Of a stretch of 22,392 nt of DNA, positions 99-22,392 are shown in pieces. Origin of the DNA: an uncultured bacterium (GTDB lineage: Bacteria > CAIJMQ01). How positions within the stretch are numbered: position 1 is the first letter of the stretch; the number at the start of each line of letters is the position of its first letter. The stretch lies in NCBI GenBank assembly GCA_903821905.1, contig CAIJMQ010000119.1, forward strand, positions 1 through 22,392, given 5' to 3'. Made by a program: the position numbers and the translations under genes. The notes beneath the pieces were generated by a model. That model saw only the letters and a program-made list of their open reading frames with translations, searched no databases and had not been told where the DNA came from.

Positions 99-320
99 TT
101 AGACCGCTTCTACTTTTTTTACTTCCTTAACCTCTTCCTTTAAGACCCTCTCAATACCGGACTTTAAAGTCATTTGAGCCATGGGACATCCACCACAAGC
201 ACCGGTAAGCTTTACCTTTACAATACCATCTTTTGTAACACTAACTAATTCTACATCTCCGCCGTCTGCCTGTAGTGCCGGCCGTATTTTACTTAGAGCT
301 TTTTCCACTTTTTCTTTCAT
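99..320 (-). CDS. Nfu-type Fe-S carrier, NifU C-terminal domain protein
   Basis: A 73-residue protein consisting only of a NifU C-terminal (Nfu) domain. The QADGGDVELV block (residues 17-26) and the CGGCPMA motif with Cys42 and Cys45 are diagnostic; in this family a pair of CxxC motifs from two subunits binds a 4Fe-4S cluster for delivery to apo-proteins. The start ATG at 320 has GGAG about 8 bases upstream and sits inside the 3' end of the scaffold gene, so the two overlap by 32 bases and are probably translationally coupled. It lacks the A-type N-terminal domain of E. coli NfuA, so this is the short stand-alone form. It is cytoplasmic and the last complete gene of the minus-strand operon. 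Confidence 0.93.
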   Translation of the reverse strand: MKEKVEKALSKIRPALQADGGDVELVSVTKDGIVKVKLTGACGGCPMAQMTLKSGIERVLKEEVKEVKKVEAV

Positions 321-696
321 TTTTCATCTCCTTTTTTTTAAAATAATCATCGATTGCTGATTTGAGCGCTTCTTCTGCTAAAACGGAGCAATGCATTTTT
401 ATGGGGGGTAGTCCACCCAAGGCTTCGGCAACTGCTCTATTTGATACAGTTAATGCCTCATCTACGGTCTTGCCTTTCACAAGCTCTGTAACCATAGAAC
501 TGGTGGCTATTGCAGCTCCGCAGCCGAAAGTTTTGAATTTTGCATCAACGATAATATTATCTTTTACTTTGATGTATAGCTCCATTATATCACCACAGAC
601 AGGATTTCCCACATGCCCAACGCCATCGGGATCTTTCATTTCGCCTACATTCCTGGGATTCTTAAAATGCTCCATCACTTTTTCGCTATATTGCAT
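289..696 (-). CDS. IscU/NifU-type Fe-S cluster assembly scaffold
   Basis: A 135-residue scaffold on which 2Fe-2S clusters are built from iron and the persulfide sulfur of the cysteine desulfurase. The three ligand cysteines are visible: Cys34 in NPVCGD (with Asp36), Cys59 in FGCGAA, and Cys103 in MHCSVLA, preceded by the LPPIK stretch that in IscU binds the HscA chaperone. The N-terminus (YSEKVMEHFKNPRNVG) is typical of the family. The ATG at 696 has AAAGGGG just upstream. The basic tail after about residue 118 is where the Nfu gene overlaps. The matching NifS gene lies upstream in the same operon. No HscA/HscB or A-type carrier is seen in the window. Confidence 0.95.
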   Translation of the reverse strand: MQYSEKVMEHFKNPRNVGEMKDPDGVGHVGNPVCGDIMELYIKVKDNIIVDAKFKTFGCGAAIATSSMVTELVKGKTVDEALTVSNRAVAEALGGLPPIKMHCSVLAEEALKSAIDDYFKKKEMKNERKSGKSSK

Positions 697-771
697 AATA
701 TCACCCCTTTCAATCTGTTCTACTGTCCCCCTTGATTTCTTACGAAATCAGGATAGGGGGATACGTCCTTA
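697..771 (-). repeat. Intergenic hairpin between nadA and the IscU gene
   Basis: The 75-base gap contains a strong inverted repeat at 726-761. TCCCCCT (726-732) pairs with AGGGGGA (755-761), TGATTTC (733-739) pairs with GAAATCA (744-750), and GGAT (751-754) is left as a four-base bulge. In the transcribed (minus) strand the loop is GTAA, a GNRA-type tetraloop. No T-run follows it on the minus strand, so it does not look like an intrinsic terminator. It may be an mRNA processing or stability element, or a copy of a small palindromic repeat. Confidence 0.7.
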
Positions 772-1683
772 CTAATCTACTCTACTATATTGCAACATCT
801 TATCAATTGCTCTTTTCGCTTTCCGTCTTGTTTTTTCTTCAACCTTTACTTCATATTTCATTTCTTCCAGCGACCACAGCACTTTTTCCAAACTATTTTT
901 CTTCATGTTTTCACAAACCGCATGTTTGGACACGGGATAAAATTTTTTGTCTTTATTTTCTTTCTGTAATCTATAAATGATCCCTATTTCTGTGCCGATT
1001 ATCATTTCTTTGCTTTTTGTTTTTTGAGCATAATTACACATACCGGATGTTGATAAAACCTTGTCTGCCAGGGCAATTACATCCGGAGTACATTCGGGAT
1101 GCACTATTACTTCGGCTTCAAGGTGTTCTCTTTTTGCCTTCCCAACATCATCAGCCAAAATTTTGATATGGATAGGGCAGTATCCTTCCCAGAAAATGAT
1201 TTCTTTGCCAGTTTGGCTTGCAACATATTGCCCTAAATACTTATCCGGGATAAAGATAATTTTTTTTGTATCTAATGAATTAACTATCTTGACGGCATTT
1301 GCCGAAGTACAACAGACATCGCTTTCAGCTTTTACTTCTGCAGTTGTGTTCACATATGCAACAACAACAGCACCCGGATGTTCTCCTTTTAATTTCCGCA
1401 ACTTTTCAGCGTTAATCATGTTTGCCATAGGACACCCGGCAGTTATTTCCGGCACAAGCACAACTTTCTTAGGAGAAAGAATAGAAGCTGTCTCTGCCAT
1501 AAAATGTACACCACAAAACACGATAACTTCAGCATCGGTTTGCGCCGCCTTCTGACTTAAACCCAGAGAATCTCCCAAAAAATCAGCAATATCCTGGATT
1601 TCGGGTGGTTGATAATTATGGACCAATATTACAGCTTTTCTTCTTTCTTTAAGGTCTTTTATTTTTTTAACAATGCTATCCAT
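772..1683 (-). CDS. nadA: Quinolinate synthase A
   Basis: NadA condenses iminoaspartate with dihydroxyacetone phosphate to quinolinate, the first ring compound of de novo NAD synthesis, using an oxygen-sensitive 4Fe-4S cluster. Counting from an upstream TTG at 1698, the expected cluster ligands are Cys89 (AGCPMAN), Cys174 (GYCPIH) and Cys262 (VCENMKKNS). Other family blocks are HNYQPPEIQDIADFLGDS, CCTSANA, HPEC and IIGTEIG. About 303 residues is normal for the short archaeal/Thermotoga form. I chose the ATG at 1683, two bases after the upstream stop, because it matches the usual N-terminus; the in-frame TTG at 1698 has a better placed AGGAG and would add five residues. As a labile Fe-S enzyme it is a logical passenger of this operon. 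No nadB or nadC is in the window. Confidence 0.95.
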   Translation of the reverse strand: MDSIVKKIKDLKERRKAVILVHNYQPPEIQDIADFLGDSLGLSQKAAQTDAEVIVFCGVHFMAETASILSPKKVVLVPEITAGCPMANMINAEKLRKLKGEHPGAVVVAYVNTTAEVKAESDVCCTSANAVKIVNSLDTKKIIFIPDKYLGQYVASQTGKEIIFWEGYCPIHIKILADDVGKAKREHLEAEVIVHPECTPDVIALADKVLSTSGMCNYAQKTKSKEMIIGTEIGIIYRLQKENKDKKFYPVSKHAVCENMKKNSLEKVLWSLEEMKYEVKVEEKTRRKAKRAIDKMLQYSRVD

Positions 1684-1685
1684 TT

Positions 1686-2657
1686 TTATACCCTGCAATT
1701 TAACAACTCCTGCTCGCTTATTTTTTCGGCACTAATTATTTGCACATTTTCATCGGGAAGAATCTTTATGCTTATATTAACTTTCTCTCCCTTACAGTAA
1801 TAAGCAACTATCTTGGACGCAATTCCTGAGGTTACATTTTCCTTTTTCCCGCGACCGATTGCAACCGGGCCCTTTGATTCCGGTTCAAAAATTATATCCC
1901 CTTTCTTGGCAAGCCCTATTAATTTTAAGTTCTCCTCATGGTTTCTCCCAACTACTAATTTAAAAGAATTACTAACATTAAAATATCTTCCGGTTTTAAT
2001 TAAATTAACCGAATCAGTATCAAGCATGTGGGATTTAAGCAGATTCTTCACTTTCAAACTAAAACCAGGGTCCGTTAAAAGACAACCTCCTGCCGGAGCA
2101 CCATATCCTGAAATATTATATTTTTCTACTAGTTTAAACTGTCTTTTCCTTGAACGCCCCTCTATATTTAGAAGTTCGTCCCTTTTTATCCAGCACTCTT
2201 TTTCAGGAATTGTTGGATTCAACAACTTTGCAGAAAGAGGGCGAACAACCAGCCCCTCAATACCGCTTTCTTTCTCTATAAGCTCCATCGCTCTTTTGTA
2301 TTGGCTCATGGGACGTTGCCCCAACACTTCACCCGTAACAACAAAACTTGCTCCTAACTCTTCCATCAATTGATGTGCTTTTTTTAATTCTAATATTCTA
2401 CAATCTATGCACGGATTTAAGTTTTTACCATAACCATGCTTGGGAGATTCCAACATCTTGAAAAAATCTTCCGAAATATCAACTAATTTTAAATCAATGT
2501 TTAATTGTTCTGCCAATAATTTAACTCTTTCACTAATACCGTCTCCACTAAAAGGGGTCATAAAAGTAACACCGATAACCTCAACTCCCTGATTCAATAT
2601 AATCTTCGCAGCTAAAACGCTGTCCAGTCCGCCTGAAATTAAAGCTAATGCTTTCAT
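1686..2657 (-). CDS. PP-loop ATPase of the MnmA/ThiI type, probable tRNA thiolation enzyme
   Basis: A 323-residue protein with an N-terminal nucleotide-binding PP-loop, SGGLDS (residues 8-13), which adenylates its substrate in MnmA and ThiI. NPCIDCR (Cys83, Cys86) sits where MnmA has its NPCxxCN-like block, and a second cysteine follows in GAPAGGCLLTDP (Cys192). The C-terminal part, VVGRNHEENLKLIGLA (about 236-251), resembles the RNA-binding DUF814/NFACT-R segment found in related thiouridylase-like proteins. It ends two to three bases before nadA and overlaps the desulfurase gene by four bases, so persulfide sulfur from NifS is the likely donor. A tRNA 2- or 4-thiouridine product is inferred; the exact position cannot be told. 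It lacks the ThiI THUMP domain and the usual MnmA C-terminal barrel. Confidence 0.8.
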   Translation of the reverse strand: MKALALISGGLDSVLAAKIILNQGVEVIGVTFMTPFSGDGISERVKLLAEQLNIDLKLVDISEDFFKMLESPKHGYGKNLNPCIDCRILELKKAHQLMEELGASFVVTGEVLGQRPMSQYKRAMELIEKESGIEGLVVRPLSAKLLNPTIPEKECWIKRDELLNIEGRSRKRQFKLVEKYNISGYGAPAGGCLLTDPGFSLKVKNLLKSHMLDTDSVNLIKTGRYFNVSNSFKLVVGRNHEENLKLIGLAKKGDIIFEPESKGPVAIGRGKKENVTSGIASKIVAYYCKGEKVNISIKILPDENVQIISAEKISEQELLNCRV

Positions 2658-3820
2658 TTTCTACCTTTGTATAAGGGTGACATTGCCCGTAACCGAGAGA
2701 CAATCTCCGGTAAAACCTCCAATACATAACCAATGTCATCTTCCGTATTGTCTTTGCCTAAACTGAATCTTACCGAGCCCTGAGATGTCGCCGGGTCTAC
2801 CCCCATAGCACTCAACACGTGTGACGGTTCAAGAGAGCCTGATGTACAGGCGGAACCACTTGATACAGCAATTCCCTGTAGGTCTAAGTTTAAAATTATT
2901 GATTCACCTTCTACAAACTTGAAAGAAACATTTAAAGTATTGGAAAGCCTTTTTTCTGGATGTCCATTTAATTGAATAGAATCTATCTTTTGGTTTAAAC
3001 CGTCCCATAACTTATCCCTTAGATTTACTTCTTTTTTGTTTTCTTCCTCCATATCTTGAGAAGCAATCTCTATTGCTTTGCCTAATCCAACTATGCCGGG
3101 GACATTTTCTGTACCTGCTCTTCTATTCCTTTCATGGTGTCCGCCGAGAATTAAAGGTTCTATCTTGGTTCCCTTCCGAATATATAATGCACCAATTCCC
3201 TTTGGCCCATAAATCTTATGCCCTGACAAAGAAAGAAGGTCAACATTTAATTCATCCACATTAACTCCTAGCTTACCTACCGATTGAACTGCATCCGTAT
3301 GGAATATAATTCCTTTTTCTTTTGCTATGCTGCCAATTTCTCCAATTGGTTCGATGGTTCCCGTTTCATTGTTTGCATGTAGAATAGTAATGAGTATCGT
3401 CTCGCCTGTTATTGCTTTTTTTACATCATCAGGATTAACTGTCCCATATTTATCAACAGGAAGAAACGTAACCTTGAACCCTTTTCCTTCAAGATACTTG
3501 CAGGTATTTAAAACAGCGTGATGTTCAATTGACGAGGTTATGATATGTCTGCCTTTTTTCTCGTTTCTATAAGCTATGCCCTTGATGGCAAAATTATCAG
3601 CTTCTGTTCCGCCACTGGTAAAAACTATCTCCTCTATTTTAGCACCTATAAAGTTAGCGACTTTTTCTCTCGCTTCATCAACTACTTTTCGTGCTTCTTG
3701 TCCGAACTGATGTATACTTGAGGGATTGCCGTATACCTCATTATAATAGGGCAACATTGCCTTAACTACCTCGGGATGAGTAGGGGTAGTTGCATTATGG
3801 TCTAAATATATTTTCCTCAT
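2654..3820 (-). CDS. Cysteine desulfurase, NifS/IscS family
   Basis: A 388-residue PLP enzyme that removes sulfur from cysteine as an enzyme-bound persulfide, releasing alanine. The PLP lysine is Lys202 in LSGHKIYGP. The His of EHHAVL (His100/101) stacks on the cofactor, and the catalytic cysteine is Cys325 in SSGSACTSGSLEPSHVL. The Cys loop, with SG on both sides, is the long-loop group I type (NifS/IscS) rather than SufS. The N-terminus IYLDHNATTPTHPEV is canonical. It starts at 3820 with a four-base overlap on the HypE-like gene and ends with a four-base overlap on the thiolase gene, so it sits at the centre of the sulfur pathway of this operon, between cysteine synthase and the sulfur acceptors. 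Confidence 0.96.
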   Translation of the reverse strand: MRKIYLDHNATTPTHPEVVKAMLPYYNEVYGNPSSIHQFGQEARKVVDEAREKVANFIGAKIEEIVFTSGGTEADNFAIKGIAYRNEKKGRHIITSSIEHHAVLNTCKYLEGKGFKVTFLPVDKYGTVNPDDVKKAITGETILITILHANNETGTIEPIGEIGSIAKEKGIIFHTDAVQSVGKLGVNVDELNVDLLSLSGHKIYGPKGIGALYIRKGTKIEPLILGGHHERNRRAGTENVPGIVGLGKAIEIASQDMEEENKKEVNLRDKLWDGLNQKIDSIQLNGHPEKRLSNTLNVSFKFVEGESIILNLDLQGIAVSSGSACTSGSLEPSHVLSAMGVDPATSQGSVRFSLGKDNTEDDIGYVLEVLPEIVSRLRAMSPLYKGRK

Positions 3821-4875
3821 TTTTTCTCTCCCAACGCTTTATAAAAAGCTGCCCAAAAAGGGTCAACTCGGGGATGAACCAATTCTTTTTCCTTCCCGTT
3901 TTCCATTAGTTTAATACCCAATTTCTCGTCTACTACTTCACCCACAATAGAAGAATCAATGCCCTCTTTTTTAAGAAGATTTACCACTTCACTTGATTTA
4001 TGAGGACGGCAGGTAAGTAGTAGCGTGCCCTCACTAATAGAAGTATAAGGGTCTATCCCAAAATACTTGCAGATTTTAATTGCTTCTTCTTTTACAACAA
4101 TTTTCTCTTTCTCTATTCTCATTCCCACCTTACTTGCTTGAGCAATCTCATAAAGACCACCCCATATTCCACATTCAGTAGCATCATGTAGAGTTGTAAC
4201 GCCCTCTTCTCTCACGCCTACTTTCACCGTCGTTAAAGCGTCTTTTACAACTGACATGTCCCAGAAAATATCCTGAGCTTTCTTAAGAAAAACACTGCCG
4301 AATTCTTTCTCTAATACTTGAGGAAGGGCTGTGGCAAAGATACCAGCAGCTTCAATAGCAGGCCCTTTGGTCACAATAATGTGGTCTCCAACTTTTGCCA
4401 TAGTGGGGGTCACATATTTATCCTTATCGCCTACACTTATCACGGTAGCTCCTCCTACCATAGGATAATGACAACCCTCGTATCTGGCAGTATGTCCGCT
4501 TACAACAGATATCCCAAGGTTTTTACATTCTTTATGCATCTCGTTCCACATTAGCTCCAATTCACTCTTTGTAATCTCCATCGGCAAATTTAAATCAATG
4601 GCCATAAAAGTCGGCTTAAGGCCCGAACAGGCGGCATCAGAAGCCAATATGTTTATTGCAAACCAAGCAGAGCGTTCCCAACCATACTCCGGGACGATAA
4701 AAACAGGGTCGCAGGTTATAGCTACAACTTTATTGCCTATTTCTACAACACCAACATCCACTCCGTTCTGCGGCCCAACCAAAATATTCTTATTTTTTGC
4801 CCCTAAACGAGGATATATTAACTCCTGAAAAATTTCCGGTGAAATCTTACCTATCTCGGGTAATTCTTCTGGCAT
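3817..4875 (-). CDS. AIR synthase-related (HypE-like) protein
   Basis: A 352-residue protein of the PurM/HypE/SelD/ThiL superfamily of ATP-binding enzymes. Family features are the early loop LVGPQNGVDVGVVEIG (about 32-47), AITCDPVFIVPEYGWER (about 53-69), NILASDAACSG (about 75-85) and the later GDHIIVTKGPAIEAAG block. It resembles the 'AIR synthase related' HypE homologues common in archaea. It lacks the C-terminal PRI/VC peptide whose cysteine is carbamoylated in true HypE, ending instead PRVDPFWAAFYKALG, and no hydrogenase maturation genes lie nearby. GGAGGG lies about 9 bases before the ATG. Its place between cysteine synthase and cysteine desulfurase suggests a role in sulfur (or selenium) transfer, but the substrate is unknown. 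Confidence 0.8.
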   Translation of the reverse strand: MPEELPEIGKISPEIFQELIYPRLGAKNKNILVGPQNGVDVGVVEIGNKVVAITCDPVFIVPEYGWERSAWFAINILASDAACSGLKPTFMAIDLNLPMEITKSELELMWNEMHKECKNLGISVVSGHTARYEGCHYPMVGGATVISVGDKDKYVTPTMAKVGDHIIVTKGPAIEAAGIFATALPQVLEKEFGSVFLKKAQDIFWDMSVVKDALTTVKVGVREEGVTTLHDATECGIWGGLYEIAQASKVGMRIEKEKIVVKEEAIKICKYFGIDPYTSISEGTLLLTCRPHKSSEVVNLLKKEGIDSSIVGEVVDEKLGIKLMENGKEKELVHPRVDPFWAAFYKALGEKK

Positions 4876-4878
4876 CTC

Positions 4879-5808
4879 TTAACCCTCCTGAAATAGTTCT
4901 GTTGAAAGATATCTATCTCCTAAATCCGGCAAGATAACAACAATCAACTTGCCTTTATTTTCTTTTCTACTACCAACTTTCAATGCTGCGCATACGGCTG
5001 CACCTGACGAAATACCTACAAATATTCCTTCCTCTTTGGCAAGACGTCTGGTGGTTGTCATGGCTTCCTCATTAGTAACTTTTATAATTTCATCAATAAT
5101 ATTTTTGTTCAATACATCCGGAACAAAACCAGCTCCAATACCCTGAATTTTATGTGGACCAGGGTTACCACCCGATAGAACAGCAGAATCTGCAGGTTCT
5201 ACTGCTATTGCTTTAAAAGACGTCTTTTTTTTCTTTATTATTTCAGCAATACCTGTAATAGTTCCTCCGGTTCCTACTCCTGCAACAACAATGTCAACTT
5301 TACCATCTGTATCCTTCCAAATTTCTAAAGCTGTAGTCTTACGATGTATTCCAGGATTGGCAGGATTCTTAAACTGCTGTGGCATAAAAGCTTTTTTATT
5401 TTTCTTAACCATTTCTTCTGCTTTTTTAATTGCTCCACTCATGCCTTCGCTACTGGGAGTAAGAACAATCTCGGCTCCCAATGCTTTAAGCATATTCTTT
5501 CGCTCAATACTCATGGTCTCCGGCATAGTCAGAATTAACTTATATCCTTTAACTGCGCAAACAAATGCCAATGCAATACCGGTATTACCTGAAGTTGGTT
5601 CTACAACAATAGAATCTTTGTTCAATAAACCTTGACTCTCTGCCGCCTTAATCATACTTAAACCAATACGGTCTTTTATGCTTCCACACGGGTTAAAAAA
5701 TTCCAGTTTACCAACAATCTTTGCATTTATATCTTTTGCTATTTTATTTAATCTGACCAAGGGCGTATTACCAACCAACTCGGTTATATTATTAGCAATT
5801 TTCTCCAT
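4879..5808 (-). CDS. cysK: Cysteine synthase (O-acetylserine sulfhydrylase)
   Basis: A PLP enzyme that makes cysteine from O-acetylserine and sulfide. The lysine that holds PLP is in [12 protein letters not shown] (Lys45 from the chosen start). The substrate loop [10 protein letters not shown] and the phosphate-binding [10 protein letters not shown] are both intact, and the PLP-ring serine lies in the C-terminal [11 protein letters not shown] block. The length of 309 residues is typical. I chose the ATG at 5808 because AGGAAGGAG lies at ideal spacing before it; the in-frame ATG at 5832 falls inside a hairpin and adds eight non-conserved residues. It supplies the substrate for the desulfurase two genes downstream. 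No serine acetyltransferase (cysE) is seen in the window. A cystathionine beta-synthase-like role is possible but less likely. Confidence 0.94.
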
Positions 5809-5822
5809 TTCATTCTCCTTCC

Positions 5823-5866
5823 TCTCCGACATTACGTCGGAGATAATCGGAACGTAGCTCCGATTA
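5823..5866 (-). repeat. Tandem intergenic hairpins between the Rrf2 gene and cysK
   Basis: Two adjacent perfect inverted repeats fill the gap. The first has TCTCCGAC (5823-5830) pairing with GTCGGAGA (5836-5843) around five bases. The second has TAATCGGA (5844-5851) pairing with TCCGATTA (5859-5866) around seven bases. In the mRNA the second one begins exactly at the stop codon of the regulator gene, and the first one ends just before the cysK ribosome-binding site. Both share a TCCGA core. There is no T-run after either, so transcription read-through is expected. They could separate the stability of the regulator mRNA from the rest of the operon, or be palindromic repeat copies. Confidence 0.75.
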
Positions 5867-6313
5867 AATATGATACATTGCTTTAGATTCTTTCCCCTTA
5901 ATTTTATCTTTCTGCATCTTTACCATATCTTCTAAAGTTATTGAATCCAGGACATCAAACATTGCTTTTTTTAGTTTCCCCCAGATATCATAAGTAACGC
6001 AAATAGGCATCCTTTTACATAATTTCGGATTATCTATACAACCTACTGGAGATATAGAACCTTCAACCGCTTGAATTATTTGACTAAGTTTTACATCACA
6101 TGGTTCTCTTGCCAAACTAAACCCACCATTTCTACCTTGGGCACTTGTTATTAAACCATTTGACACCAAAATTCTCATTATATTTTCCAGATATCTTTCT
6201 GAAATGTCTTGTCTTTTAGCTATGTCCCTTAACAAGACAGCTTGCTCGTCATTATGTAACGCTAAATCTAACATGGCCCTTGTTCCGTAACGCCCTCTCG
6301 TAGAAAGTTTCAT
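5864..6313 (-). CDS. Rrf2-family Fe-S sensing regulator, IscR-like
   Basis: A 149-residue transcription factor with the Rrf2 winged helix at the N-terminus ([17 protein letters not shown], then [19 protein letters not shown] as the recognition region, and [10 protein letters not shown] as the wing). Three cysteines, Cys92, Cys99 and Cys105 ([15 protein letters not shown]), match the cluster ligands of IscR in order and approximate spacing, so it probably binds a 2Fe-2S cluster. It is the first gene of the sulfur/Fe-S operon and is divergent from gap. An inverted repeat over its own -10 box (6335-6364) is a candidate operator. By analogy it would repress the operon when clusters are plentiful. 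A CymR-type cysteine regulator is the alternative given the adjacent cysK, but CymR lacks these cysteines. Confidence 0.9.
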
Positions 6314-6334
6314 GGTTTTATTTATTAAACAACC

Positions 6335-6364
6335 TTATTATCATCGTTTTAGTGATGATTATAA
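6335..6364. promoter_or_regulatory. Candidate Rrf2/IscR operator
   Basis: An imperfect palindrome in which TTATTATCATC (6335-6345) mirrors GATGATTATAA (6354-6364) with one mismatch per arm, around eight central bases. It covers the -10 box and the presumed transcription start of the minus-strand Rrf2 operon. Its length and position fit a dimeric Rrf2 repressor site. That the Rrf2 protein encoded next to it binds here is an inference. Confidence 0.6.
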
Positions 6365-6385
6365 TATATCTTAATTTTTTGTCAA
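6358..6385 (-). promoter_or_regulatory. Sigma70-type promoter of the Fe-S operon
   Basis: On the minus strand, TTGACA (6385-6380) and TATAAT (6363-6358) are separated by 16 bases, both matching consensus exactly. The start codon of the Rrf2 gene lies about 45 bases downstream of the -10 box. The -35 box is 16 bases from the -35 box of the divergent gap promoter. Confidence 0.85.
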
Positions 6386-6401
6386 GTATAAATATTATAA
6401 G

Positions 6402-6430
6402 TTGACAGATTGGAAACTGATTTTTATAAT
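6402..6430 (+). promoter_or_regulatory. Consensus sigma70-type promoter of gap-pgk
   Basis: TTGACA at 6402-6407 and TATAAT at 6425-6430 are separated by 17 bases, a perfect housekeeping promoter. Transcription should begin near 6437, giving a leader of about 44 bases with AAAGGAGG just ahead of the gap start codon. Confidence 0.9.
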
Positions 6431-6480
6431 ATGCCCTAAATTATTATCAAAAAGCTTAAAACAAAGGAGGTTATAGAAAT

Positions 6481-7482
6481 ATGTCTATCAAAGTAGCAAT
6501 AAATGGATTCGGGAGAATCGGGAGAAATGTTTTAAGGGCAGGTTACAAAAATCCGGATATTGAATGGGTGGCAATCAATGATTTAACCGACGCTAAAACG
6601 CTTGCTCATCTTCTTAAATATGATTCGACATTCGGCATAATGCCCGCCGATGTTAAAGCAGACGGCAATTCTATAGTAGTTGACGGGAAGAAAATTCAGA
6701 TTTTATCCGAGAAAGACCCCGCAGTATTACCGTGGAAGAAATTGAATGTTGATTTAGTTATTGAATCGACTGGTAAATTTACAAACAAAGAAGGCGCTAC
6801 CAAGCACATTACAGCCGGCGCCAAGAAAGTTCTAATTTCCGCTCCAGCAAAAGATGCTATTGATGCAACAATAGTAATGGGAGTAAATCATAAAACGTAT
6901 GACAAAAATAAACATCATATAGTTTCGAATGCTTCCTGCACAACAAACTGTTTAGCTCCTGTCGCAAAAGTTCTGCAAGATAAGTTTGTTATCAAAAGAG
7001 GGCTTATGACAACCATTCATTCTTACACGAATGACCAGGTTATTCTGGATTTCCCGCATAAAGACCTAAGGCGCGCAAGAGCAGCAGCTTTAAGCATCAT
7101 ACCCACTTCAACCGGCGCAGCCAAAGCACTCGGGTTAGTAATTCCTGAACTTTCCGGCAAAATGAACGGACTGTCTTTAAGAGTTCCTACGCCGAACGTT
7201 TCAGTTGTTGATTTGGTGTGCGATGTGGAGAAAGAAGCAACGGTCGAAACGGTAAACGCTGCTTTCAAAGAAGCCGCAAAAGGTGCTTTAAAAGGCATAC
7301 TTCAATACTGTGATGAACCTTTGGTTTCACGAGATTTTTATGCAAATCCAAATTCTGCCATATTGGACGCTGGCTCGACTTACGTAATAGATAAAACAAT
7401 GGTTAAGGTCATTGCTTGGTACGATAACGAATGGGCGTATTCCGTAAGAATGCTTGATTTGGCAAAACTTATGCTCAAATAA
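6481..7482 (+). CDS. gap: Glyceraldehyde-3-phosphate dehydrogenase, type I
   Basis: This enzyme oxidises glyceraldehyde-3-phosphate with NAD and phosphate to 1,3-bisphosphoglycerate in glycolysis. The Rossmann start is [17 protein letters not shown], and the catalytic cysteine is Cys153 in [12 protein letters not shown] with the partner His180 ([10 protein letters not shown]). The [20 protein letters not shown] segment binds the phosphates, and [11 protein letters not shown] closes the protein. 333 residues is the normal length. The Asn-Asp pair at the end of the second strand (AINDLTD) suggests NAD preference. An AAAGGAGG site precedes the ATG. pgk follows 24 bases later, the classic order, so both are expected in one transcript from the consensus promoter upstream. 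Confidence 0.97.
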
Positions 7483-9782: not shown

Positions 9783-10223
9783 ATGGAATATTTTTCAACC
9801 AAAGACATAGGAAGAACTTTCCTGTTGCGGCTTGACCAAGGGGACGATATTCTTGAAAGTATCAACAACCTCATTCAGAAAGAAAACATAAAAAACGGCG
9901 TAGTCGTCTCTGCAATAGGAACAGTAGATAAGTGTGTTCTTCATATGGTTACAACAACAGGATATCCCCCAAAAGAACACTTTGAAAAATGGGACAACAA
10001 ACCCCTTGAAATTTCTTCCATACACGGCATAATAGCTGATGGAAAACCTCATTTACACGCCGTTGTGTCTGATTCCAAGAAAGCTTACTCGGGCCACCTT
10101 GAAAAAGGTTGTCGCGTATTATATCTTACAGAAATAGTGATTATGGAACTAAAATCAATCCATTTAACAAGAGTTTTGGATGACAAAAATATTTCTAAAT
10201 TGACCCGCGACCCAGGAGAATGA
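9783..10223 (+). CDS. PPC/DUF296 domain protein
   Basis: A 146-residue single-domain protein of the plant-and-prokaryote-conserved (PPC) family, in plants found attached to AT-hook DNA-binding motifs; the bacterial role is not established. Visible family features are LRLDQGDDILESI (about 16-28), VVSAIGTVDKCVLH (about 41-54), a probable metal-binding histidine cluster HGIIADGKPHLHAVVSD (His81, His90, His92) and GHLEKGCRVLYLTEIVI (104-120). No AT-hook is present. GGAG lies just ahead of the ATG. Its 3' end overlaps folK by four bases (ATGA). The preceding RraA-family gene is its likeliest functional partner; a small-molecule or metal-dependent role is as plausible as DNA binding. Confidence 0.82.
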   Translation: MEYFSTKDIGRTFLLRLDQGDDILESINNLIQKENIKNGVVVSAIGTVDKCVLHMVTTTGYPPKEHFEKWDNKPLEISSIHGIIADGKPHLHAVVSDSKKAYSGHLEKGCRVLYLTEIVIMELKSIHLTRVLDDKNISKLTRDPGE

Positions 10224-14259: not shown

Positions 14260-14709
14260 ATGGCAGGACGAGTTATTCAGAACAAGCGGGCTTTCTATGA
14301 ATACCTCATTACAGATAAATTTGAAGCCGGGCTGGTTCTTAAAGGGACTGAAGTTAAATCTTTGCGGGAAGGCAATGTAAGTATTGTTGATTCTTTCGCA
14401 AAGATTGAAGAAGGTGATATATTCCTTTACAATATGCACATTGCACCATATGAAGCGGGGAATATCTTCAACTCTTCTCCGCTTAGAAAAAGAAAGCTCC
14501 TTTTACATAAAAGCGAGATAAAAAGGCTTGCTGGGAAACTGTCTCCAAAAGGATTGACATTAATACCGCTAAAAGTGTATTTTAGTTCCAGGGGCTGGGC
14601 AAAAATAGAACTTGGGCTTGCAAAGCCCAAAAAGCTGTTTGACAAAAGACAAGAAATGAAGACGAAAGAGCACGAAAAAGACATGAGGAAAGCGATAAAA
14701 GGAATATAA
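14260..14709 (+). CDS. smpB: SsrA-binding protein SmpB
   Basis: SmpB binds tmRNA and places it in the A site of stalled ribosomes for trans-translation. The 149-residue protein shows the family features: IQNKRAFYEYLITDKFEAGLVLKGTEVKSLREGN near the N-terminus in separate blocks, SFAKIEEGDIFLYNMHIAPYE, the RKRKLLLHKSEI core, and the basic C-terminal tail KKLFDKRQEMKTKEHEKDMRKAIKG that folds in the mRNA channel. The KRELIKKRELKKR-like tail is conserved in pattern (LFDKRQEMK). The start at 14260 matches the short N-terminal forms. The tmRNA gene lies 17 bases downstream, a common pairing. Confidence 0.95.
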   Translation: MAGRVIQNKRAFYEYLITDKFEAGLVLKGTEVKSLREGNVSIVDSFAKIEEGDIFLYNMHIAPYEAGNIFNSSPLRKRKLLLHKSEIKRLAGKLSPKGLTLIPLKVYFSSRGWAKIELGLAKPKKLFDKRQEMKTKEHEKDMRKAIKGI

Positions 14710-14726
14710 AATTATATTTAAAATAA

Positions 14727-15086
14727 GGGGGTGCCCAGGCATCGACATGGGGTAAGCGACCAGAAGGAGCATGCCGAGGTTGTCAGGAGGCCTCGTAAAA
14801 ACACCTGGCAAACATATAAACGCTGAAGAAACAACAGTAGCTTTAGCTGCTTAATACCAGCTAACATCCTTATTCCCGTTCGCCCGTTGGGGAATAGGGG
14901 TGCAAAAAATGGGCTTACTTCTCACTTCAGGTCTGAGGTGTGGGGAGGGAAAATAAACCAGGCTCGTTCCTTTCTTATCTTGTCCTTAAGAGAAGAGAGG
15001 AACTAAACGAAAATAAGGAACAAGCATGTAGCTGCCTCTTGGTAACTACTCTATGGACACGGGTTCGATTCCCGTCACCTCCACCA
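14727..15086 (+). ncRNA. ssrA: tmRNA (SsrA)
   Basis: A one-piece tmRNA of 360 bases that tags incomplete proteins on stalled ribosomes. The 5' end GGGGGTG (14727-14733) pairs with CACCTCC (15076-15082) to form the acceptor stem, followed by A and an encoded CCA (15084-15086). The T-loop region GGGTTCGATTCCC lies at 15061-15073. The message part begins at GGC (14807) and reads GKHINAEETTVALAA before TAA at 14852-14854; the VALAA end is the protease-recognised degron seen in many bacteria, and the CCTGGCAAA context resembles the resume site of Bacillus-type tmRNAs. The resume codon is inferred from the only open frame. No terminator follows; an amidase gene starts eight bases after the CCA. Confidence 0.95.
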
Positions 15087-17241: not shown

Positions 17242-17396
17242 TGTGGACAAGTTGTTGGTGTTTTTTGCATTTTTTCGTTTTTTTATCTTTAAAAAAACGA
17301 TAAAACCAGTACGCTGTTGTCCTTTGTGTTTTATAAACAAGCATCCATCGGCACCTCTGAATAAGTTGCCTTTTTTTGTGGATAACCTGTGGATTG
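17242..17396 (-). promoter_or_regulatory. DnaA boxes upstream of dnaA
   Basis: TGTGGATAA at 17377-17385 is a perfect DnaA box on the minus strand (TTATCCACA). TGTGGATTG follows in the same orientation 11 bases later (17388-17396), one helical turn away and directly before the dnaA ribosome site. TGTGGACAA at 17242-17250 is a one-mismatch box. Clustering next to the start codon suggests feedback control of dnaA by DnaA. Confidence 0.8.
17275..17300. repeat. AT-rich hairpin in the dnaA leader
   Basis: TCGTTTTTTTA (17275-17285) is the exact reverse complement of TAAAAAAACGA (17290-17300) around a four-base TCTT loop, giving an 11-base-pair stem. It is too AT-rich to be a typical intrinsic terminator, yet perfect symmetry is unusual. 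It could be a DNA-unwinding or architectural element or an mRNA leader structure. Confidence 0.6.
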
Positions 17397-17410: not shown

Positions 17411-18772
17411 ATGAGCACGCCGGAAGAAAATAAAGTTTGGGATAAAGCATTGTCGGTTATAAGAGAGACGATGGATGAGAAGAGTTTTAATATGTGGTTT
17501 AAACCTCTTAAATGTGTGTCGTCCAACAATGAGGTGCTTAATATCGAAGCTCCGTCTCAACTTTTTGCTGATTGGATTAACAAAAACTACAAAGAGGCGA
17601 TTGATAAAGGGTTGTCCTCGGTTACAGATAAAAAAATAAAGGTAGAGTTTTCTTTCAACCAAGAAAACAAGGGAAAACTAAAAATTAAGAAGCAGGGGCC
17701 GTCTCTTTTTGATAATAGGTTTGACAATAGAGGTGATCCCAGCTTCTCGGCTTATTTAAACCCTAATTATACTTTTGATAAGTTTGTAGTTGGTAGTGGT
17801 AATCAGTTTGCACACGCCGCTGCGATGGCTGTAGCCAATTCACCCGGCAAAGCATATAACCCGCTCTTTATTTATGGTGGCGTAGGTCTTGGGAAAACCC
17901 ACCTTATGCAGGCAATAGGGAATGAGCTTGTTGCTAAACACGGCGACCAAAAAATACAATATATCTCCAGCGAAAAATTCACGAACCAGCTGATCGGTGC
18001 AATACAAAACAGGACTACCGAAAAGTTTCGCAAACATTATCGTTCTTCGGGTGTTCTCCTTATTGATGATATCCATTTTATTGCCGGCAAGGAAAGCACT
18101 GAAGCTGAATTCTTCCATACGTTTAACGAACTTTATGATGCACACAAGCAGATAGTAATTTCCAGCGATCGCCCCCCAGAAGAAATACCAACCTTAGAAA
18201 AGAGGATGATTTCGCGTTTCCGCTGGGGCTTAGTTGCAGACATCCAACCGGCCGACTTTGAAACTCGAATGGCTATTTTGCAGAAAAAGATACTGTTTTA
18301 CGGATACAAGATTCCAGACGACGTGCTTTCTTATATCTGTTCCGGCATTACATCAAATATAAGGGAATTAGAGGGCGCCCTAATAAGGGTGGTGGCTTAT
18401 TCTTCTCTTAATGGAAAGACTTTAAACATGAACGTTGTAAAAGAACTTCTTAAAGACTTGATAAAAGGTGGCGATAGCCAAAAACCCATAACAATTGATT
18501 TGATAAAAGAAGAGGTTTGTAATCTTTTTAATGTAAAAGTTTCTGATATGAATTCTAAAAAACGGGATCGAGCCATTGTATATCCCCGCCAAATCGCCAT
18601 GTATTTAGTAAGAGAATTAACAGATTTTTCGCTGCCGGGTATAGGCAACAATTTTGGGGGCAGAGACCATACAACCGTAATACACTCCTGCAACACAATA
18701 AAAACAAGAAGAAAAACAGACAAAAACCTTGACCAAATAATTACTAAAATAATACAAAATATAAAATGTTAA
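17411..18772 (+). CDS. dnaA: Chromosomal replication initiator DnaA
   Basis: DnaA binds DnaA boxes at oriC, melts the origin and recruits the helicase. The 453-residue protein has domain I (about 5-85), a short linker, an AAA+ domain III with Walker A GGVGLGKT (156-163), Walker [13 protein letters not shown] (216-227), and the sensor and arginine-finger regions ([21 protein letters not shown]), then a C-terminal DNA-binding domain with the signature [14 protein letters not shown] (415-428). The core [20 protein letters not shown] (119-138) is canonical. The usual signature loop FPLPGIG is read here as FSLPGIG. GGAGAG lies about 10 bases before the ATG and abuts a DnaA box, suggesting autoregulation. 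Confidence 0.98.
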
Positions 18773-18939
18773 TAGTGTGGAAATATAAAATAGTTGTCCC
18801 CACATTTTTTATAACCTTAAATGTGAAAAGAATAAGAAACTTACAACTTTTTCCACATTATCAACAGGGATTATTATTATTAATACTAGTTATATATAAT
18901 ATAATAGTAACGTAATATAAAGAAATTAAAGGAGAGAAA
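18773..18939. other. Candidate chromosomal origin (oriC), dnaA-dnaN intergenic region
   Basis: This 167-base AT-rich gap contains two abutting DnaA boxes in the same orientation, TTTTCCACA (18849-18857) and TTATCAACA (18858-18866), each one base from TTATCCACA. After a GGGA spacer comes TTATTATTATTA (18871-18882), a run of trinucleotides like the DnaA-trio of the Bacillus basal unwinding system, then an almost pure AT tract to about 18910. A weaker box, TGTGGAAAT, lies at 18776-18784. The order box-box-GC spacer-trios-AT tract matches the described bacterial unwinding module. The dnaN ribosome site (GGAG at 18931) ends the region. Origin activity is inferred from sequence only. Confidence 0.8.
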
Positions 18940-20031
18940 ATGAGAATAAAATTTACCCAAAGCGAATTATTAAAAACTATACAAACAATACAAGGTGTTA
19001 TATCCACAAGAACAACATTACCAATACTCTCTTATTTTCTTTTAACAGTTAAACCAGGGAATATATCTTTTTTTAGTACGGATTTGGAAGTAGGTATTAA
19101 GTGTAATATTTTAGGGGAGATACTAGAAGAAGGAGTAATAGCGCTTCCAGGAAAACGAGTATTAGAGTTAATAAGAGAATTTCCTAAGGGTGAAATTGAA
19201 ATTTCCACAGAAAAAAACATTACAACAATTAAATGTTCCAAAACCCGCGTAAGAATAAACACCCTTCCACCAGACGATTATCCCACTTTCCCTGAAATAG
19301 TGGGGCAAAAAATTAGTATAAAAGGAAGCTTATTAAAATCAATGATTCAGAAGACTCTCTTGGCTGTTTCCAGGGAAGAAAGTAGGTATACCCTGACGGG
19401 GGTGTACTTATTATTAAAAGGCGATAGCATTGAAATGGTTGGCACGGATGGCCGCAGGTTGGCTTTAGTTGAAGAAACCATTGGGGGAGAACCAGTGAAG
19501 CAAAAAAGGGATTGCATACTACCTATGAAAATATGTAATGAGCTTCTGAGGGTAATAACAGACGACGAACTTACCTTAACCTTGGGAGAAAAACAGGCGA
19601 ATTTTATCCAAAAAGATCTTTCTCTTACGTCTCGGCTAATAGAAGGGGAATTCCCAGATTATAATAAAGTTATACCAAAGACCTTTCAACAGAAACTTAT
19701 GATTAATAGACAAGAGTTAATAGGCGCCGTTACAAGAGCTTATGTTTTAACCAAAGAAAAAGGGAGTTCTGTTAAGTTTGATGTGCAAAAAGACTCTATA
19801 ATAGTCAGCTCTAAGGTAGCCGAGGTGGGTGAATCCTCAGAGCAAATACCGATCAAACACGGCGAGAAGGAAATTCAAATAGCATTTGATCCGGAATATA
19901 CAATAGACGTGTTGAAAGTTATAGATAGTGAGGAAGTTTTTCTGGGTTTAAATTCTACCAAAGAAGCAGCTCTCTTCAGGCCCATGGATAATGAAAAATT
20001 TGTTTATGTTTTGATGCCAATGGAGATGTGA
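18940..20031 (+). CDS. dnaN: DNA polymerase III beta subunit (sliding clamp)
   Basis: The beta clamp is a ring-shaped dimer that holds polymerase III on DNA. The 363-residue protein shows the three-domain clamp pattern: MRIKFTQSELLKTIQTIQGVISTRTTLPILSYFLL at the N-terminus in two blocks, INTLPPDDYPTFPEI (about 106-120), YTLTGVYL and MVGTDGRRLALVE (about 164-176), LIEGEFPDYNKVIPK (about 236-250), and the C-terminal YVLMPMEM that lines the partner-binding cleft. Length is normal. AAAGGAGAG precedes the ATG. It follows the origin gap after dnaA and is followed one base later by the DciA-like gene, a classic origin operon. Confidence 0.97.
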   Translation: MRIKFTQSELLKTIQTIQGVISTRTTLPILSYFLLTVKPGNISFFSTDLEVGIKCNILGEILEEGVIALPGKRVLELIREFPKGEIEISTEKNITTIKCSKTRVRINTLPPDDYPTFPEIVGQKISIKGSLLKSMIQKTLLAVSREESRYTLTGVYLLLKGDSIEMVGTDGRRLALVEETIGGEPVKQKRDCILPMKICNELLRVITDDELTLTLGEKQANFIQKDLSLTSRLIEGEFPDYNKVIPKTFQQKLMINRQELIGAVTRAYVLTKEKGSSVKFDVQKDSIIVSSKVAEVGESSEQIPIKHGEKEIQIAFDPEYTIDVLKVIDSEEVFLGLNSTKEAALFRPMDNEKFVYVLMPMEM

Positions 20032-20032
20032 G

Positions 20033-22392
<2,360 letters not shown>

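Follow-up and report, generated by a model that had tools for sequence, protein, structure and literature searches.

Layout of the dnaA-dnaN region

The window, meaning the whole stretch of 22,392 nucleotides analysed here, carries three replication genes in a row on its forward strand. These are dnaA (17411–18772), encoding an initiator of 453 amino acids that matches Pfam Bac_DnaA (3.7e-70), Bac_DnaA_C and DnaA_N; dnaN (18940–20031), the sliding clamp gene, with Pfam DNA_pol3_beta domains; and, directly after it, dciA (20033–20338), a replicative helicase loader/operator (Pfam PF05258 DciA, 2e-15). Between the end of dnaA at 18772 and the start of dnaN at 18940 lies a gap of 167 bp that is 79% AT. 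From 18849 onward, the forward strand of this gap reads TTTTCCACA TTATCAACA GGGA TTA TTA TTA TTA ATA CTA G TTATATATAATATAATA. The first two elements are DnaA boxes on the forward strand, a distal one (18849–18857) and a proximal one (18858–18866), which abut without a spacer and each differ from TTATCCACA by one mismatch. Next come a strandless GGGA spacer (18867–18870) and a run of DnaA-trios (18871–18888), made up of TTA four times at 18871–18882, ATA at 18883–18885 and CTA at 18886–18888, then a single G and an AT-only tract (18890–18906). The bound strand of the trios would be the bottom one, on which they read 3'-AAT-5' four times, 3'-TAT-5' and 3'-GAT-5', in the same register as in the Bacillus subtilis system. 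Every element of the layout proposed in an earlier note on this DNA, from the abutting boxes to the AT-only stretch, can be read directly at 18849–18906. At the start of the gap, distal to the trios, an inverted pair of weaker DnaA boxes (18776–18802) is formed by ATTTCCACA on the reverse strand and TTGTCCCCA on the forward strand, with two mismatches each; an opposed pair is found in relatives too.

At lengths of 30, 50 and 70 bp alike, no duplex in the window is less stable than the one that follows the abutting boxes. The DNA unwinding element, which overlaps the trios and has no strand, is accordingly placed at 18870–18919, the stretch with the lowest nearest-neighbour stability among all 50-bp stretches of the window. 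TATAAT-like sequences at 18871–18906 raise the question of whether the element is a dnaN promoter instead of an origin, and two weak sigma-70-like matches do overlap the boxes and trios. However, their number is that of the shuffle mean (2 vs 2.2), and a promoter, which could coexist with an origin, would leave the box pair and the in-register trios unexplained. A promoter in place of an origin is extremely improbable.

The remainder of the window holds several other features. A tmRNA gene (14727–15086; tag AEETTVALAA) adjoins smpB (14260–14709), and the called start of an amidase ORF at 15053 falls within it, the true start probably lying further downstream. On the reverse strand, a sulfur-handling cluster (289–5832) that is conserved in the relative G002 adjoins an rrf2 regulator and comprises nifU, nadA, a ThiI/MnmA-like PP-loop protein, nifS, a HypE/ThiL/SelD-superfamily protein and cysK. 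The PP-loop and HypE/ThiL/SelD-superfamily proteins both score below curated cut-offs and may constitute an uncharacterised sulfur or selenium relay. An ORF of 146 amino acids between an RraA-like gene and folK (9783–10220) had no NCBIfam match.

Conservation and chance occurrence

Seven genomes were compared, namely that of the window, three from the same family and three from the same class; these seven are the only genomes of the lineage in the collection searched, and the NCBI labels of the relatives include Calescamantes and Caldisericota. DnaA identity to the window's protein is about 80% in family members and about 56% in class members. The dnaA-dnaN gaps range from 148 to 218 bp and align poorly. 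Within the same gap of all six relatives, ACA is followed by 3–4 nucleotides and three (C/T)TA trios, a pattern that arises in 0.1–0.7% of shuffles per genome. The sequences concerned are ACAC TTACTACTA in G002, ACAC CTATTATTA in G003 and GCAC TTACTATTA in G001, while G005, G006 and G004 have GCG, GGG and GTA, respectively, each with TTATTACTA. Counting the window, the 3–4 nucleotide spacer and the first three YTA trios are kept in 7/7 genomes, so that conservation, one of the checks suggested in the earlier note, came out in its favor. Variation inside trios 1–3 is confined to C or T at the first base, which the trio consensus allows. The boxes of the sister genus are weaker than the window's (2–3 mismatches), and the box pair as a whole is less conserved than the trios.

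A fourth TTA occurs in the window only; the relatives have AGA or AGG, giving cytosine as the middle base on the bottom strand. In B. subtilis, cytosine in place of adenine caused no rate loss in vitro (PMC10721633). At the relatives' loci (L084–L089), the middle base captured from the fourth trio would be this cytosine and, once it is counted, the register of amine-bearing middle bases spans six trios.

A composite score for a box pair, a spacer of 1–6 nucleotides and YTA trios was used to gauge how readily such an arrangement arises. Not one of 5000 shuffles that preserved the dinucleotides of the gap reached its value, and no score close to it turned up elsewhere in the 22-kb window or in a 593-kb contig of G002. 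The 1.30-Mb genome has a single site at which a DnaA box precedes three YTA trios, the dnaA-dnaN gap itself. When both strands of the 1,304,591-bp draft genome were searched, TTATTATTATTA was found once, at 18871; as a control, its letters read backwards were found once on each strand.

These results bear on the idea that the TTA repeats are a microsatellite that merely happens to lie close to DnaA boxes, with no trio role. The AT content of the gap would favor such a run and, given the AGA or AGG of the relatives, slippage could have extended it in the window. Against this, the fourfold TTA is unique in the genome, and in every genome compared three YTA trios stand at a fixed 3–4 nucleotides from the proximal box. 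A purely incidental origin of the run is thus very improbable.

DnaA boxes flanking dnaA

Further DnaA boxes lie upstream of dnaA on the reverse strand. One of them, TTGTCCACA (17242–17250), has one mismatch; at this site the four family genomes all retain TTGTGGACAAGTTG, and class members have a box at the equivalent place. A pair at 17377–17396 consists of a perfect TTATCCACA (17377–17385) and CAATCCACA (17388–17396). Box clusters upstream of dnaA are present in 7/7 genomes, and no trio run was found beside them in any of the seven. Since these upstream boxes are conserved too, the origin is probably bipartite, with dnaA flanked by clusters of DnaA boxes, one of which holds the unwinding element, and the pair at 17377–17396 is a putative oriC1 half. 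The earlier description of a compact origin overlooked the upstream cluster and is probably too narrow.

Chromosomal position

The draft genome of the window is divided among 121 contigs, and skew was therefore examined on the 593-kb contig of G002, in which synteny around dnaA is conserved and the gap lies at about 477.3 kb. DnaA boxes reach their highest density on this contig in the bins at dnaA-dnaN. Without correction, cumulative GC skew is lowest at 497,873, which is 20 kb from the gap. After removal of the coding-strand effect by means of fourfold sites, the minimum is at 467,875 and the change-point interval of 466–495 kb includes the gap. The GC-skew trough (464–498 kb) brackets the gap without resolving it, and for AT skew the best-fitting change point falls at 445 kb, with a clearly worse fit at 477 kb. 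The skew check called for in the earlier note, made on this contig only, lends weak support: the gap lies inside the GC trough but is not singled out, and AT skew prefers another position. Overall, the G002 skew agrees with an origin at the dnaA-dnaN gap without pinpointing it.

An alternative is that the main function of the boxes is to titrate DnaA or to autoregulate dnaA-dnaN, with replication starting elsewhere, for example at the divergent nifS-rrf2/gap junction (6.3–6.5 kb). The window's own cumulative GC-skew minimum is near 6.4 kb, at this junction, and the syntenic position in G002 (464 kb) has a local skew trough. However, the genes switch strand near 6.4 kb and the minimum there is attributable to the coding-strand effect, the corrected interval in G002 being 466–495 kb as noted above. 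In addition, direct reading of 6250–6520 revealed no DnaA-box cluster or trio run, and titration has no use for conserved trios. A start of replication away from the dnaA-dnaN gap is improbable.

The initiator and its trio tract

The window's DnaA aligns along its full length with that of B. subtilis (8btg; E 2.5e-135). The residues reported to contact the trios in B. subtilis, E183, N187, I190, I193, R202, K222, E223 and E228, are conserved, as is the arginine finger R264; in the numbering of the window's protein these are E188, N192, I195, I198, R207, K227, E228, E233 and R269. The sole trio-contact residue that differs is B. subtilis N196, a third-base contact, which is R201 in the window. 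A second, weak DnaA-like match, on contig C85 (L002), was considered as another initiator and rejected, as it looks like an IS21-type IstB helper ATPase beside a transposase.

The composition of the trios deserves separate attention. Cryo-EM and genetics show best capture for 3'-GA-5' and a preference for 3'-GAT-5', and initiation is poor when a B. subtilis origin carries six 3'-AA-5' trios (PMC10721633). Trios 1–4 of the window lack the preferred guanine. Hence calling the perfect TTA repeats cleaner than the mixed trios of B. subtilis, as the earlier note did, inverts the functional order (PMC10721633).

To place the tract among other origins, forward-strand runs of at least four YTA trios beside a box were counted in the dnaA-dnaN gaps of fetched loci, a sample that leans to Firmicutes. 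A pattern survey of 386 genomes was mixed with background, many matches lying away from dnaA, and only dnaA-dnaN gaps entered the census. Thirty runs were found, 24 of which start with CTA; two consist entirely of TTA, those of the window and of L012, a locus of the Bacillota MAG PL25a_bin.78. Like the window, the L012 gap is AT-rich and has pure TTA trios (six) 13 nucleotides from a DnaA box, but its boxes are weaker and its DnaA has Thr at the B. subtilis I193 position where the window has Ile. This is the only Thr at that position among 107 DnaA sequences. AT bias alone was rejected as an explanation of the pure TTA runs, as other gaps at 18–24% GC mostly keep CTA trios. A compensating change in the guanine pocket of DnaA (R207, E233) was also sought, and the pocket is unchanged.

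One tentative suggestion, held with rather low confidence, is that the origin of this lineage works efficiently on almost guanine-free trios (3'-AAT-5' four times), with the near-consensus abutting boxes and the very unstable duplex offsetting their weakness in the presence of an unaltered R207/E233 pocket. The all-AAT tract offers a natural test of the weight of the trio guanine where the DnaA pocket is intact.

A candidate BUS-type origin

The earlier note proposed that the gap is an origin with the order of elements of the basal unwinding system (BUS). The published search rule for BUS asks for a DnaA box with up to two mismatches within 16 bp of at least three consecutive NAN trios, and for a second box with up to four; it found candidates in 1755 of 2070 bacterial origins, about 85%, with 13 bp as the commonest spacer (PMC8287927). 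The window has two boxes with one mismatch each, a spacer of 4 nucleotides, 13 nucleotides from the distal box to the trios and at least six consecutive 3'-NAN-5' trios; an easily melted AT-rich element, the DnaA ISM residues with the arginine finger, and conservation in relatives are also present. Only trio 6 is 3'-GAT-5', which is a preference and not a requirement of the family. The proposal is supported by 6/6 relatives, the least stable duplex and the DnaA residues, and more weakly by the skew trough that brackets the gap in G002. The dnaA-dnaN gap is very probably the unwinding half (oriC2) of a BUS-type chromosomal oriC.

From the observed sequence with its position and conservation, the instability of the duplex, the residues of DnaA and the presence of DciA, we infer how binding, filament formation, unwinding and loading may proceed. 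DnaA domain IV would bind the abutting boxes (18849–18866) and be positioned across the 4-nucleotide spacer. On the bottom strand of the trios, DnaA would then assemble by way of domain III into an ATP-dependent filament and capture the first two bases of each trio. The duplex could open into the AT-rich tract as far as the dnaN ribosome-binding site, after which DciA may help with helicase loading. A higher local DnaA concentration, or regulation of dnaA, is the probable contribution of the box clusters found upstream of dnaA and where the gap begins.

Comparison with known origins

The architecture is of a known kind, having been predicted for 85% of the 2070 bacterial origins (PMC8287927). 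Although its host lineage is unusual, the locus itself is very probably an ordinary origin of the BUS type, and the near-pure AAT tract is its only, mildly unusual, point. Its significance lies in extending the box-spacer-trio origin to an uncultured, deep lineage, in support of the view that BUS is ancestral.

With the BUS of B. subtilis, the window shares the location in the dnaA-dnaN gap, tandem boxes pointing to the trios, a short spacer, an AT-rich element, trios bound on the opposite strand and conserved DnaA ISM residues. It differs in that the B. subtilis trios are mostly 3'-GAT-5', whereas trios 1–4 of the window are all 3'-AAT-5'; B. subtilis has seven boxes, compared to four recognisable ones in the window's gap; and the loader in the window is DciA, unlike in B. 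subtilis. A further comparison is with the bipartite oriC1/oriC2 of Clostridioides difficile (PMC7561715). There, the trios mix CTA and TTA in contrast to the fourfold TTA of the window, and DnaA-dependent melting, which is predicted for the window, was shown experimentally (PMC7561715). As in the window, box clusters flank dnaA and trios are found in the dnaA-dnaN half only, and it is in this half that the bipartite origins of both B. subtilis and C. difficile melt (PMC7561715).
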